31,394 nt of DNA from a virus, in IMG/VR virus record IMGVR_UViG_3300020411_001441, positions 1-31,394 of that record; one strand, 5' to 3'. Below, piece by piece: positions 4,095-16,005 of this stretch. The notes below the pieces were generated by a model. The model saw nothing but the letters and a program-made list of their open reading frames with translations, was not told where the DNA came from and did no database searches. The position numbers and the translations under genes are program-made. Each line of letters starts with the position of its first letter. Position 1 is the stretch's first letter.

Positions 4095-5277
4095 TATATT
4101 TAGAGGCCGAACAGACGAAGAAAAGCTTAATCCTGCTCAAGTATTTATCTCCCAAGAAGAGGGAATGGTTTTAGGCTCGACTGAGAATATTAGAAATTAT
4201 ACCGCCGCATATGAACAGTTTGAAGTAGTAAATAGAGCGGTAAATTTAGTTGTAGATGATGTAGCAGAAATAAAAGTAGATGTAGGAGATAAATTAGCAT
4301 TACAGTCTATTCAAAAGAATATACGGAGATCACGGGTTGATCTTTTACTTAATTTAGAGCCGAATCCCTTTCAAGACATTAACACTTTCAAAAGAAACTT
4401 AGTTATTGATCTTTTAATGGATGGTAATATTTTTGTTTACTTTGATGGAGCGCATTTATATCAATTACCTGCTAAAAATGTAGAGATTGAAACAAGCGAA
4501 AGATCTTACATCAACGCTTTTATTTATGACGGTAAGTTATCGTATAGTCCAGAAGAGATAATACATATTAAAGAAAACTCTTTCGAATCTATGTATAGAG
4601 GAGTACCTAGGCTTAAGCCTGCTTGGGAAAGAATGCAGCTTCTAGGTTCTATGAAGAATTTTCAAAAGAACTTTTTTAAGAATGGAGCAGTTCCGGGACT
4701 TGTACTAAAAAGCCCGAATACTTTGAGTGAAAAGATCAAAGAAAGAATGTTAGCAGCGTGGAGATCAAGATATAATCCTAACGCTGGAGGACACAGACCT
4801 CTTATTTTAGACGGAGGTTTAGAAGTTGAGAATTTGAACGCTGTTAATTTCAGAGAGTTAGATTTTCAACAGTCCATAGAAGAGAATGAAAAAACTATTT
4901 TAGAAGCTATTGGAGTTCCTCCTATTCTTTTAAATAGTGGTAATAATGCAAATATTCGACCTAATCATAGGCTATATTACTTAGAGACGGTACTTCCTAT
5001 AGTTAGAAAAATGAACTTTGCATTTGAAAGATACTTTGGATATGATTTGCAAGAAGATATTAGTAATATTCCTGCACTTCGACCTGAGTTACAAGATGAA
5101 GCCGCATACTATTCTACTTTAGTAAACGGTGGAGTCATGAGTCCTAATGAAGCTAGACAAGCTTTGAGACTAGAACCTGTAGAAGGGCATGACGATCTTA
5201 GAGTACCTGCAAACATAGCAGGCTCTGCTGCAAACCCTTCTGAAGGTGGTAGACCTGAGGAAACGAATGACGGATAA
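4078..5277 (+). CDS. Portal protein (HK97/lambda-like family)
   Basis: A 399-residue protein matching HK97-type portals: the N-terminal FEVVNRAVNLVVDDVA, the core LLLNLEPNPFQDINTFKR, YRGVPRLKPA and NFFKNGAVPGLVL, then LEAIGVPPILL and a C-terminal clip/crown region ending Gly/Pro/Glu-rich. It forms the dodecameric ring at the capsid vertex for DNA passage and tail joining. The length is typical of the family. ATG 4078 falls inside the end of the HNH gene, an overlap suggesting coupled translation. The end overlaps the capsid fusion ORF; GAGG at 5257-5260 within the portal gene is that ORF's Shine-Dalgarno. Confidence 0.96.
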   Translation: MAWYSNIFRGRTDEEKLNPAQVFISQEEGMVLGSTENIRNYTAAYEQFEVVNRAVNLVVDDVAEIKVDVGDKLALQSIQKNIRRSRVDLLLNLEPNPFQDINTFKRNLVIDLLMDGNIFVYFDGAHLYQLPAKNVEIETSERSYINAFIYDGKLSYSPEEIIHIKENSFESMYRGVPRLKPAWERMQLLGSMKNFQKNFFKNGAVPGLVLKSPNTLSEKIKERMLAAWRSRYNPNAGGHRPLILDGGLEVENLNAVNFRELDFQQSIEENEKTILEAIGVPPILLNSGNNANIRPNHRLYYLETVLPIVRKMNFAFERYFGYDLQEDISNIPALRPELQDEAAYYSTLVNGGVMSPNEARQALRLEPVEGHDDLRVPANIAGSAANPSEGGRPEETNDG

Positions 5278-7654
5278 AGCTGTATCGGATATTGACTTCA
5301 AACCTACTGAGTCCATGGCAAAAGAAGCTCAAAGAGGCTTAGACTGGAGAAAAGAATTTGGTAGAGGAGGAACTAATATAGGATCTACTCGAGCCAGCCA
5401 GTTAGTAGCAAGAGAGAATCTATCTCCTAAGACAGTTAAGAGAATGCATTCTTATTTTAGCAGACATGAAGTCGATAAGCAAGGTGAGGGCTTCTCTCCT
5501 GGCGAAGACGGATACCCTAGCGCAGGTAGAATAGCGTGGGCTCTTTGGGGCGGGGATCCTGGCCAATCTTGGGCAAGAAAGAAAGCAGCTCAGATTGATA
5601 GAGAGGAAGGTAAAAGTATGAATAAAATCATTAATCTAACATCTACTTTGAAGTTAGCCGGAGAGGAAGATAATAATCTTAAAATCGAAGGTTATGCAAG
5701 TACGAATGATGAAGATAGGGTTGGAGACATTATCGAACCTACCGCATGGAAAAAGGGCGGGTTAGATAATTATCAAAACAATCCTATTCTACTATTTAAC
5801 CACGATTATAATACCCCTATTGGTAAGGCTACTAGCCTAGAAATAACCAAGAAGGGTCTTAGAATCGAGGGTATAATTTCTAAGTCAGCGGGTAAAATCG
5901 CGGATTTAGTTAAAGAAGGCATCCTGGGCGCTTTTAGCGTTGGTTTCCGGGTCAAGGATGCTGACTATAATAAGGAAACCGATGGTTTAAGGATCAAGGA
6001 TGCGGAACTGTTTGAAGTGTCAGTTGTTTCTGTCCCTGCAAATCAGTCCGCGATCTTCTCTGTAGCAAAAGCTTTTGACTCAGAAGAAGAATATGCGGAC
6101 TGGAAAAAACAGTTTGTTAACGATCCTCATGTTGAAATCGATCAGTCCGATAAGGACTCATCAAAGGAAACAGCAAATGCTGTCTTCGGAGACAATATTA
6201 TGTCTGATAAAGACTTTGATCTCGAAGAGTTCGCAAAAGAAGTAGCTCGTAAGACTGCTGCTGAAATTCAGATGAAACAAGCTGAAGAGAAAGCAGCTGC
6301 TGATGCAGAAGCCAAAGAGGCTGCTGTACAGCAGGAAGCTCAAAAAGCTGCTGAAGAAGCACAACTCGAAGAGAAGAAAGCTGAGGTCCAAGCTGTAGTT
6401 CAGGGCGTAACGTCGGGCGCGGAACGTCTCGTCTCAGATTTGGAAGAAAGGGTTCTTAAAGGTCAAGAAGACCTTGGAACTGTTGTAGACGAGTTGCGAA
6501 AAGAACTTAATGAGAAATCTGAAGAGATTTCTGCTATTCGCGAGTCTAAGAGAATTTTCGGTGAGCGTCGCGACAGTGGCGACTGGAAAGTTAAAATGGC
6601 GTCTGACGTAGAAGATGCGTATATGCTTGGTCGCGTTACTGGCAAAGGTTATGAAACTGACTTTGCCAAAAATGTAATGGAAAAGGTAAATACTATGTCT
6701 GGTGTTGCAGTTCAAGGAGCTGATTTTGAACAAGTTGTCTCTACTAACGTAGAACGAGACATTCAGTTAGAGCTTAAATTAGCTCCCTTATTCCGTGAAA
6801 TTCAAATGAGTTCAGCAAGCCAGATTTTACCTGTAATGCCTGACTCTGGATATGCCGAATTCGTTTCAGCTCAGATGACGGATGGAGTTTCCCCTCATGG
6901 TAACTTAGCTGAGAGAGGAGACCAATACAAGACTACAGGTCAAGGTGATAGAGGCGGTATCGATATGACTGCAACTACTCTTACCACCAAGAAGCTTATT
7001 TCTCGTACCTATCTTGGTAACGAGACTGAAGAGGATGCAATTATTCCTATTCTTCCTCTTATCCGTGAAGCCGTTATTAGGTCTCAAGCACGTTCCGTCG
7101 AGAATATGATTCTTGTTGGTAACACTGGTGACAGTCCTTTCGGATCGGGTAATGCTTCTCCTGATGGTCTCATAAAGTATGCGGGTTCTAATAAAACTCA
7201 GCATGCCACAGCTTATGCTAATCATCCTGTTATGGTAGCTACCGAACTATTGGCAGCTCGTAAAAATATGGGTAAGTATGGTGTTCGTCCTGAGGATGTA
7301 GTTTACATCGTTAGCTTGACGAAGTATCATGAGCTTATTTCTGATACTGCTTTCGCAGATGTCAGTCAGGTTGATAATGCAAGTTCAACCAAACTTACTG
7401 GTCAAGTAGGCCAGGTTTACGGATCCCCCGTTATTGTATCGGACGAGTTCGCGACAGCGGGCACAGATAAGTTCTATGCAGTAGCAGTGAATCCACGTAA
7501 CTTTGTAATTCCGCGTCTTCGTGGTGTTACGGTTGAAAGCGATTATGAAGTCGCTGAACAGCGTAGAGTTCTTGTCGCGTCACAACGACTTGGATTCGCA
7601 GGCATCATCGCAGGTACTACTGCGGCGTGGCCTTTGCAGTTCAAGGGTTCTTAA
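5267..7654 (+). CDS. Fusion: N-terminal domain + S78 prohead protease + HK97 major capsid protein
   Basis: One 795-residue ORF carries three parts. Residues 18-112 form a conserved small domain (LDWRKEFGRGGT, LSPKTVKRM, PSAGRIAWALWGGDPG). Residues 136-268 are an HK97-family (S78) protease with His179 in LLFNHD, Ser224 in GAFSVGF and the ELFEVSVVSVPAN strand with Glu248/Glu250. Residues 312-795 are the capsid: a Glu/Ala/Lys-rich coiled-coil delta (scaffold) segment to about 430, then an HK97-fold shell domain. ATG 5267 is preferred over GTG 5246 because GAGG lies six bases before it. Two further in-frame ATGs, 5618 (M118) and 6200 (M312), each have good ribosome binding sites at exactly the domain borders, so protease-capsid and free capsid are probably also made. 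A full fusion alone could not easily give the roughly 400 capsid copies per protease dose that a shell needs. The protease should remove itself, the N-terminal domain and the delta segment on maturation. Confidence 0.93.
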   Translation: MTDKAVSDIDFKPTESMAKEAQRGLDWRKEFGRGGTNIGSTRASQLVARENLSPKTVKRMHSYFSRHEVDKQGEGFSPGEDGYPSAGRIAWALWGGDPGQSWARKKAAQIDREEGKSMNKIINLTSTLKLAGEEDNNLKIEGYASTNDEDRVGDIIEPTAWKKGGLDNYQNNPILLFNHDYNTPIGKATSLEITKKGLRIEGIISKSAGKIADLVKEGILGAFSVGFRVKDADYNKETDGLRIKDAELFEVSVVSVPANQSAIFSVAKAFDSEEEYADWKKQFVNDPHVEIDQSDKDSSKETANAVFGDNIMSDKDFDLEEFAKEVARKTAAEIQMKQAEEKAAADAEAKEAAVQQEAQKAAEEAQLEEKKAEVQAVVQGVTSGAERLVSDLEERVLKGQEDLGTVVDELRKELNEKSEEISAIRESKRIFGERRDSGDWKVKMASDVEDAYMLGRVTGKGYETDFAKNVMEKVNTMSGVAVQGADFEQVVSTNVERDIQLELKLAPLFREIQMSSASQILPVMPDSGYAEFVSAQMTDGVSPHGNLAERGDQYKTTGQGDRGGIDMTATTLTTKKLISRTYLGNETEEDAIIPILPLIREAVIRSQARSVENMILVGNTGDSPFGSGNASPDGLIKYAGSNKTQHATAYANHPVMVATELLAARKNMGKYGVRPEDVVYIVSLTKYHELISDTAFADVSQVDNASSTKLTGQVGQVYGSPVIVSDEFATAGTDKFYAVAVNPRNFVIPRLRGVTVESDYEVAEQRRVLVASQRLGFAGIIAGTTAAWPLQFKGS
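5601..5620 (+). promoter_or_regulatory. Internal ribosome binding site and start, protease-capsid form
   Basis: GAGAGGAAGG (5601-5610) lies seven bases before an in-frame ATG (5618) at the border between the N-terminal domain and the protease. The resulting product would begin MNKIINLTS, a natural protease start, and lack the first 117 residues. Confidence 0.6.
6188..6202 (+). promoter_or_regulatory. Internal ribosome binding site and start, free capsid form
   Basis: GGAG (6188-6191) lies eight bases before an in-frame ATG (6200). The product would begin MSDKDFDLEEF, looking like an ordinary major capsid start followed by a delta coiled coil, with 484 residues. Confidence 0.6.
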
Positions 7655-7677
7655 TCCCTATTTGGGTAATAGTGATC

Positions 7678-7699
7678 AAGGGGAGGTTCGCCTCCCCTT
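7678..7699 (+). terminator. TTCG hairpin after the capsid gene (no U-tract)
   Basis: A perfect 9-bp stem AAGGGGAGG (7678-7686) / CCTCCCCTT (7691-7699) closes a TTCG loop, 23 bases after the capsid stop. GGTAAT (7665-7670) and ATTACC (7702-7707) could extend it through an internal loop. Only three T's follow, so it is a poor intrinsic terminator; RNA 3'-end protection or a processing site that favours capsid mRNA is more likely. Confidence 0.7.
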
Positions 7700-7721
7700 T
7701 GATTACCTCAAGGAAATCTTT

Positions 7722-15600: not shown

Positions 15601-16005
15601 ACTAAGATGAACACAGATTTAGGAGGACGAATTGACGCAAATATAGGTAACGTCCTAGGCCCAGGCAACAGGTATGGAGGAATAGTGGAGCGTCCTGTGG
15701 GATACTCTACAGGCGGAATTGCAAGAGGTAGTAGTGCAGGATACCCTGCAATACTACACGGAACAGAAGCGGTAGTGCCCCTTCCTAACGGAAATGCTAT
15801 TCCTGTTGAAATGCGAGATGGTGGAGGTACAAATAACGTAAGTATTACTGTTAACATGAACGAAGGAGGCTCAAGCTCAGAACAGAGCGGTATTACTGCC
15901 GATCAAGCGGGCCAATTAGGTAAACTGTTATCCGCAGCAGTACAAGAAGAACTTCAAAATCAAAAACGACCCGGAGGCATACTTAGCCCCTATGGAGCAG
16001 CATAA
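12676..16005 (+). CDS. Tape measure protein
   Basis: A 1109-residue protein, the longest but one in the window, with the usual features: an N-terminal region of variant repeats of charged helices (VRVSDNGSLQQVGKNARTAD), hydrophobic stretches at about 52-75, 253-281 and 465-485, long helical coiled-coil segments (about 560-960) and a Gly-rich C-terminus with GGIVERPVGYSTGG and LHGTEAVVPLPNG typical of these proteins. It sets tail length, is threaded through the tube and may help DNA enter the host membrane. At roughly 1.5 angstroms per residue it would predict a tail of about 160 nm. The end overlaps the M gene (TAATG). Confidence 0.96.
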   Translation: MADVEVGVRVSDNGSLQQVGKNARTADRNLKGAAKTSANATKNFSKMAQGITGGLVPAYATLAANVFAITAAFNFLKNAADFENLRKGQIEFAQKTGVALGAMTGKLQEASGGMLGFKEAAQAAAIGTAKGFSTDQLEKLTIGARKAAAALGRDFEESFDRLVRGVSKAEPELLDELGITLRLETATKRYAQQIGKTADQLTSYERSQAVLAETQRQLDEQYGDMSTPVNEFVKLQKTFDRIVKAVTQALLPAFQGLAGFIADNATIAVLLFGALGLSIFKSIPGVSELGEKISNIGKGGKGIKDVIQDFKKWNSDIEDTRVSLESLQATATKKFKGVAGQLAASSDSKILKKASEKGFEGLHGGDKANLKKALRSAEAQYAKHGRIVSGMFKDADIKVVRHFEKSMKDMEKSSLGFVRTVKNGMKFVGIAGKGSARLIRSSFVGAFTAIKAVARGTMKVVNKLMKATIILGVVKAIFDAFNSLMKMPHTLAMNVAKGLANIAKTIQFIANLAVQTINAGMDALPDSFFAFIGKDRADFKIEKFTFADDADVKAVEMVNAGLAKLNISMDDLAKQEAEHTRKAQMEERLADLASGYTTLNESIQAAKSGLAEMIAEEKSAEEQARLIINSLSTTDLASEFRKALALDVSAVAGEKATAAEIASAQAEILGKGGGAALKQFKNSLEDISALSPEMQQAIDNLDITKITQITSQAQSAKGNYEAVKRGITDLTVELQKGGRETINYLESLKDSAEASDEMGEAIKVGATGAVQLLADAMAERGLDTDKYIQRLRYVVEETQRLKMANLDLQRQTNENRLSGAVVKQQVDRELAAEKALLEVRQQKLDTLNLENQLAAMRDSDAGYQDKIDEIELSRQNTIVLMNNAAIAKKEATAVGQILMTVNDSFQSSLASSLQGLIQGTMSVKDAFKNMALGVLNALSQIIAELMVVALVRQLALGGISAGQSAQLEGFNTNMSTKMNTDLGGRIDANIGNVLGPGNRYGGIVERPVGYSTGGIARGSSAGYPAILHGTEAVVPLPNGNAIPVEMRDGGGTNNVSITVNMNEGGSSSEQSGITADQAGQLGKLLSAAVQEELQNQKRPGGILSPYGAA

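Follow-up and report, generated by a model that had tools for sequence, protein, structure and literature searches.

How a phage that encodes its prohead protease and its capsid protein in one reading frame might make the two in different amounts is the question raised by a gene in IMG/VR virus record IMGVR_UViG_3300020411_001441. The record, whose 31,394 nucleotides are referred to here as the window, derives from a marine, siphovirus-like phage; its head is T5-like, and it encodes a homologue of the lambda-type tail-fibre protein J. The fusion open reading frame (ORF) runs from an ATG at 5267 to a stop codon at 7652-7654 and encodes 795 amino acids without an internal stop. A sequence-only reading had described a small domain, an S78 protease, and a capsid protein in this single continuous frame, with an in-frame ATG and its own Shine-Dalgarno sequence (SD) at both domain borders (5618 and 6200), and these coordinates and motifs were confirmed. 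In a 1:1 polyprotein each capsid subunit would be loaded with protease; conserved nested starts provide a testable explanation of how the ratio is controlled. Comparison with relatives makes it very probable that the one gene yields a minority of fusion chains together with free capsid precursor, the latter made by internal initiation at a nested in-frame start. Internal initiation, which had been proposed for both borders, is strongly supported by the comparison at 6200; at 5618 it is plausible but less well supported, because the ATG or SD has been lost in some relatives.

In the window alone the internal ATG and SD pairs are moderately unusual. An SD with a predicted duplex energy of -6.0 kcal/mol or lower precedes 8 of the 125 internal in-frame ATGs in the long ORFs of the window, and two of those eight are exactly the ATGs at the domain borders. 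Because 8 of 125 ATGs have a comparably good SD, the case rests on relatives. Another of the eight, at 6965 inside the capsid body, also has a strong predicted SD (-8.9), probably by chance.

Three IMG/VR scans from different subclades provided 236 usable loci with protease and capsid; some are copies of one contig, and the set contains 102 distinct linkers. Locus L141, which holds the capsid part only, is outside the 236. Protease and capsid lie in a single open frame at every one of the 236 loci. The capsid border invariably carries Met-Ser (ATG followed by TCA, TCT, or TCG), the neighbouring columns all vary, and so does the length of the linker. Selection on the site was evaluated with 23 linkers less than 85% alike, each compared with synonymous recodings that used the codon usage of the gene itself. 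The internal SD duplex was -6.7 kcal/mol, versus -3.1 kcal/mol in the recodings (Fisher p 8e-6), and a scan of 300 nucleotides to either side placed the best SD at the capsid start (about -6.7, versus a mean of -1.5 elsewhere). The sequence-only reading had proposed to check in relatives whether the internal sites are conserved beyond coding need; this holds for 6200, where the SD exceeds the synonymous null, and at 5618 the position shifts among relatives.

A short hairpin, which was absent from the sequence-only reading, lies in the linker at about -30 to -16, directly 5' of the capsid SD, with a stem of 3 to 7 bp and a loop of 3 to 7 nucleotides. The stem arms are diverse: relatives of the window, which has ACAGC/GCTGT, carry ACAGAC/GTCTGT, ACAGTC/GACTGT, GCAGAC/GTCTGC, GAGGA/TCCTC, GGGC/GCCC, GTGGG-TTCG-CCCAC, ACGG/CCGT, or TGAGGT/ACCTCA. 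In the 23 linkers the hairpin energy was -6.6, versus -3.3 in the synonymous recodings (Fisher p 4e-10), and the best hairpin in the scan of 300 nucleotides to either side was at the capsid start (about -6.0, versus -1.4 elsewhere). Covariation was evaluated in a sequence-only MAFFT alignment of 74 distinct sites, with the stem tested as a named structure against shuffled and slid controls. Stem cells were paired in 83% of cases versus 61% when shuffled, 97 of them had changed on both sides versus 35.5, and the covariation score was 0.49 versus 0.15 in shuffled and at most 0.09 in slid controls. In the subclade with the ACAGAC stem (19 sequences) all stem cells were paired, with two covarying pairs. 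When the gapped alignment was folded automatically to a consensus, the hairpin was not recovered and a weak CC/GG alternative was returned, and an Rfam search of the window gave no family match at the gathering score.

Five loci of the ACAGAC subclade (L037, L058, L066, L067, and L079) have a deletion of one nucleotide in the loop and an insertion of one nucleotide after the SD; the intervening stretch is translated in a different frame, which changes the peptide from VFKEN to SSRKN. Stem and SD are both intact, as is the frame of the fusion as a whole, which argues for constraint on the RNA rather than the peptide at this site and for maintenance of read-through as well as of the internal start. 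A comparable hairpin precedes 29% of the other SD-bearing gene starts on the same contigs, versus 98% at the capsid start, and the possibility that such hairpins accompany the gene starts of these phages generally was therefore rejected. These comparisons demonstrate, at the level of sequence, a conserved fusion frame, an invariant nested start, and a selected SD and hairpin, and indicate that in the T5-like clade the hairpin is selected as RNA. A proline codon 11 to 16 codons before the internal ATG, just 5' of the hairpin, was found in 88% of the 102 distinct linkers; at that position (about 6154-6169) the window has serine.

A second capsid clade, also absent from the sequence-only reading, has the nested start as well. 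A search with the N-terminal domain of the fusion protein led to Roseobacter phages CRP-406, CRP-811, and CRP-821 and Synechococcus phages S-CBS1 and S-CBS3, whose 'major capsid protein' genes consist of this domain, the protease, and a capsid of another subfamily (PF05065). At all 83 Roseobacter-type loci protease and capsid form one ORF, which includes the N-terminal domain in 60, and the ATG at the capsid border is present in all 83. Over 18 representatives the SD there averaged -8.6, versus -4.5 in recodings (p 2.5e-6). The roseophages CRP-406 and CRP-822 have been isolated and purified (PMC12629253). No hairpin was found in the Roseobacter clade, and the region upstream was less structured than expected. 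Thus, this clade has the nested start too, here with a stronger SD and no hairpin. The sequence-only reading had held that relatives with an intact fusion and a destroyed internal SD would speak against it; there were none among the 236 close relatives or the 83 loci of the second clade, but the two distant cyanophages S-CBS1 and S-CBS3 are of this kind.

In the proposed mechanism, some ribosomes would read the whole ORF from 5267, or part of it from 5618, and produce few fusion chains, in which a covalent link to the scaffold domain would take the protease into the prohead. Ribosomes that instead bind the SD before 6200 would produce the free capsid precursor, which would make up most of the capsid. 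With two routes of ribosome entry, the ratio of protease to capsid would depend on how strong the starts are relative to one another. In the T5-like clade, the short hairpin just 5' of the SD would be part of the internal ribosome site. For its procapsid to assemble correctly, T5 reportedly requires both the protease and the portal (Huet et al. 2016, cited in PMC10275583), and a guaranteed tether would therefore be useful.

An ORF that is open at every locus, with a prohead protease within the chain, might also indicate a polyprotein from which all capsid is made as fusion, beginning at 1:1, with the protease excising itself and the internal ATG and SD being incidental. HK97 and T5 tolerate a scaffold domain fused 1:1 to their capsid protein (PMC10275583). 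However, this would leave unexplained why the Met is invariant, why the SD exceeds the synonymous null, and why a covarying hairpin lies at a fixed distance, and a polyprotein alone is very unlikely. The location of the hairpin in translated sequence at a domain border, with the proline codon preceding it at 88% of sites, raises the possibility that the hairpin and an SD-like sequence act only on elongation, halting ribosomes at the border so that the protease folds before the capsid. A pause needs no ATG, yet the ATG is invariant in 236 of 236 and in 83 of 83 loci, and the second clade has a stronger SD and no hairpin; this explanation is extremely unlikely.

Selection on the hairpin at the RNA level is also what might be seen if a separate or processed capsid mRNA set the ratio, arising from an internal promoter or by cleavage 5' of the hairpin, which would then cap the new end. 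A stem at the 5' end adjoining the SD fits a stabilized processed mRNA. The internal start would be real in this case too, so that this explanation is compatible with a nested start. However, there is no -10-like element near the start in the window, a loose census found one in 7 of the 23 representatives at scattered positions, and the second clade does without the hairpin. An internal promoter was rejected because no -10-like element is conserved near the capsid start, and on balance it is unlikely that a separate or processed mRNA sets the ratio. A two-state switch, in which the right arm pairs with either the left arm or the SD and a ribosome over the left arm closes the capsid start, gains some support from RNAalifold, which in the unconstrained alignment prefers pairing of the right-arm CC with the SD GG in 74 of 74 sites. 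However, these are two pairs only, complementarity beyond CC/GG is not conserved across subclades by eye, and in silico the SD is no less accessible when the left arm is recoded. Such a switch is very improbable.

Several observations weigh against internal initiation from a selected SD and hairpin. The p-values assume independent representatives, and the relatives are not entirely independent. The window sequence alone did not differ significantly from its synonymous recodings (SD, p 0.12; hairpin, p 0.33), and its minimum-energy fold pairs the SD with downstream sequence. Disruption of the hairpin in silico left SD accessibility unchanged (higher in 11 of 23). S-CBS1 and S-CBS3 are fused and have kept the ATG but have no SD, for which SD-independent initiation in cyanobacteria is a possible explanation.

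The role of the hairpin is the least certain part of the proposed internal initiation. A function in opening the SD was rejected because left-arm recoding did not lower the predicted accessibility. Our leading guess, a tentative one, is that the hairpin parks or slows ribosomes translating the protease upstream, letting a 30S subunit reach the SD; as an alternative guess, it might protect a processed capsid mRNA. T5-like phages with separate genes also tend to carry a stem at the end of the protease coding sequence, ahead of the capsid SD (six phages, combined p 0.005), and the deep fused lineages L300 and L268 have a similarly placed stem (p about 0.07 for each); at L259 and L270 a stem before the capsid SD was not found. 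Loci of cultured and environmental T5-like phages with separate genes and a stem are L238-L243, L252, L266, and L267. These observations are suggestive of a hairpin that predates the gene fusion. It is somewhat more probable than an even chance that the hairpin, SD, and ATG, at nearly fixed spacing, are a new cis-acting RNA module that lies in translated sequence, drives capsid initiation in a large family of marine T5-like phages, and may be older than the fusion. Protease-capsid fusions in general may contain nested capsid starts.

The start at 5618 is likely to be used, judging from the relatives, with its exact position shifting among them. Its SD is the strongest among those of the internal ATGs of the window ORF. 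The N-terminal domain is restricted to 11 loci of the T5-like set, and most relatives start at the position of 5618. Three relatives with the domain (L006, L007, and L011) have an SD and ATG at that position (-6.4). In L004 (-6.5) and L015-L020 (about -5.6 to -6.0) the SD and ATG are 9 codons upstream, at MSSK or MSSN, and the ATG at the 5618 position is without an SD or gone. The MSSK site often lies inside the conserved peptide LPEGHPMS, and its SD may therefore be driven by coding.

Table 1. Features of the fusion gene in the window, with predicted SD duplex energies
Feature	Position	Strand	Remarks
Fusion ORF: small domain, S78 protease, T5-like scaffold domain, capsid	5267..7654	+	795 amino acids
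SD region of first start, CTGAGGAAACGA	5255..5266	+	Predicted duplex -6.1 kcal/mol
Small conserved N-terminal domain, no assigned function	5267..5617	+	11 loci of the T5-like set; also in Roseobacter and Synechococcus phages
SD of middle start, GAGAGGAAGG	5601..5610	+	-9.6 kcal/mol
In-frame ATG of middle start (protease-capsid form)	5618..5620	+	
S78 prohead protease and variable linker	5618..6199	+	Pfam Peptidase_S78 match, amino acids 131-265
RNA hairpin ACAGC-AAAT-GCTGT	6170..6183	+	Position and pairing conserved with covariation across relatives
SD GGAG of internal capsid start	6188..6191	+	Predicted duplex -6.6 kcal/mol
Internal in-frame ATG of capsid precursor	6200..6202	+	Met-Ser invariant, 236/236 relatives
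Nested capsid precursor: scaffold domain (about amino acids 312-472 of fusion), then T5 pb8-like capsid	6200..7654	+	

Profile and structure comparisons support these assignments. The protease part matched PF04586 with an E value of 8e-19 (68.7 bits, versus a gathering score of 21) and TIGR01543 with 77.9 bits (cut-off 59), and the ORF is accordingly predicted to carry an S78 prohead protease. The capsid part matched T5-type capsid structures 8zvi (E 4e-47) and 5tjt (E 2.5e-43); the 8zvi alignment spans amino acids 323-787 of the fusion, and mature pb8 (5tjt) aligns from amino acid 474. By homology spanning both parts, the capsid is of the T5 pb8 type, with an N-terminal scaffold domain and a maturation border. 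Against NCBIfam NF045541, a family of protease/capsid fusions, the whole protein scored 58 bits, far below the cut-off of 525. The N-terminal domain (about 117 amino acids) had no Pfam match, and its AlphaFold model, with a confidence score (pLDDT) of 51, is too poor for a fold search. In L006 (60-1028), L007, L011, and L016-L019, in the region from portal to protease, extra small in-frame modules have accumulated between the N-terminal domain and the protease; one resembles DUF5824, which Pfam found in the CRP-821 protein. The 5' part of the fusion gene seems to gather domains.

Elsewhere in the window, the genome is a mosaic (2343-26024): its head genes are T5-like, its tail-fibre protein is of the lambda J type (PHROG 31), and its minor tail proteins are lambda-like. 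An ORF at 1361-2107, just upstream of the terminase gene, matches PHROG 21992 (esterase/lipase). The start of a minor tail protein gene at 16005 has an upstream hairpin equal in strength to that at the capsid start (-6.4 kcal/mol). Essentially all 23 representatives have a strong GC-rich hairpin 3' of the capsid gene, usually with a T-rich tail, which looks like a terminator or 3' stabilizer; in the window (7655-7710) it is AAGGGGAGG-TTCG-CCTCCCCTTTGATT and was not called by the consensus scan. No near-identical phage DNA was found. Matches to genome contigs that might identify the host were limited to two, both in one gammaproteobacterial metagenome-assembled genome bin, and are insufficient to name it.

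The conserved nested starts in two capsid clades suggest that the chain annotated in databases is probably not the main capsid product, which would make its annotated start, size, and copy number incorrect. As a compact natural element linked to initiation within mRNA under active translation, the hairpin is useful for studying how internal ribosome sites function while ribosomes pass through them.

Related arrangements are known. In lambda C/Nu3, and in similar pairs in Mu and P2, a scaffold gene is nested in frame within a protease gene and the short form is made in excess. The fusion gene resembles lambda C/Nu3 in that protease and assembly protein share one frame and in its nested in-frame start, here with a conserved SD, but in lambda the nested product is scaffold and the capsid gene is separate, whereas here the nested product comprises both scaffold and capsid. 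We know of no covarying hairpin before the Nu3 start. In herpesvirus UL26/UL26.5, too, protease and assembly protein share a frame, and a nested short form is present in excess; the short form comes from its own transcript, and the fusion includes no capsid protein. T5 and other Demerecviridae have homologous protease, scaffold domain, and capsid in the same order, with an SD for the capsid directly after the protease, but as separate genes 3 to 17 nucleotides apart, whereas all 236 relatives of the window are fused; in the capsid tree, fused and separate forms fall on either side of one branch. CRP-406, CRP-811, CRP-821, S-CBS1, and S-CBS3 likewise encode a homologous N-terminal domain, the protease, and the capsid, in that order, in a single ORF with an internal ATG at the capsid border. 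They differ in their PF05065 capsid and lack of the hairpin, and the SD is strong in the Roseobacter phages and absent from the cyanophages.

Protease-capsid fusions are described as common in small siphoviruses (PMC9671004). A prohead protease and an HK97-fold capsid in one ORF, as here, are also recorded in NCBIfam NF045541 and NF045540 and in Rhodobacter cluster RcC (PMC8601537). The gene in the window differs from these in scoring far below the NF045541 cut-off and in its T5-type capsid, and the accessible parts of those sources describe no internal capsid start. Within the part of the literature covered, the fusion has been reported, and neither an internal capsid start nor this hairpin was found. 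Fusions and nested starts are therefore of known kinds, and what appears to be new is a nested start for the capsid itself, in two clades, together with a covarying hairpin.

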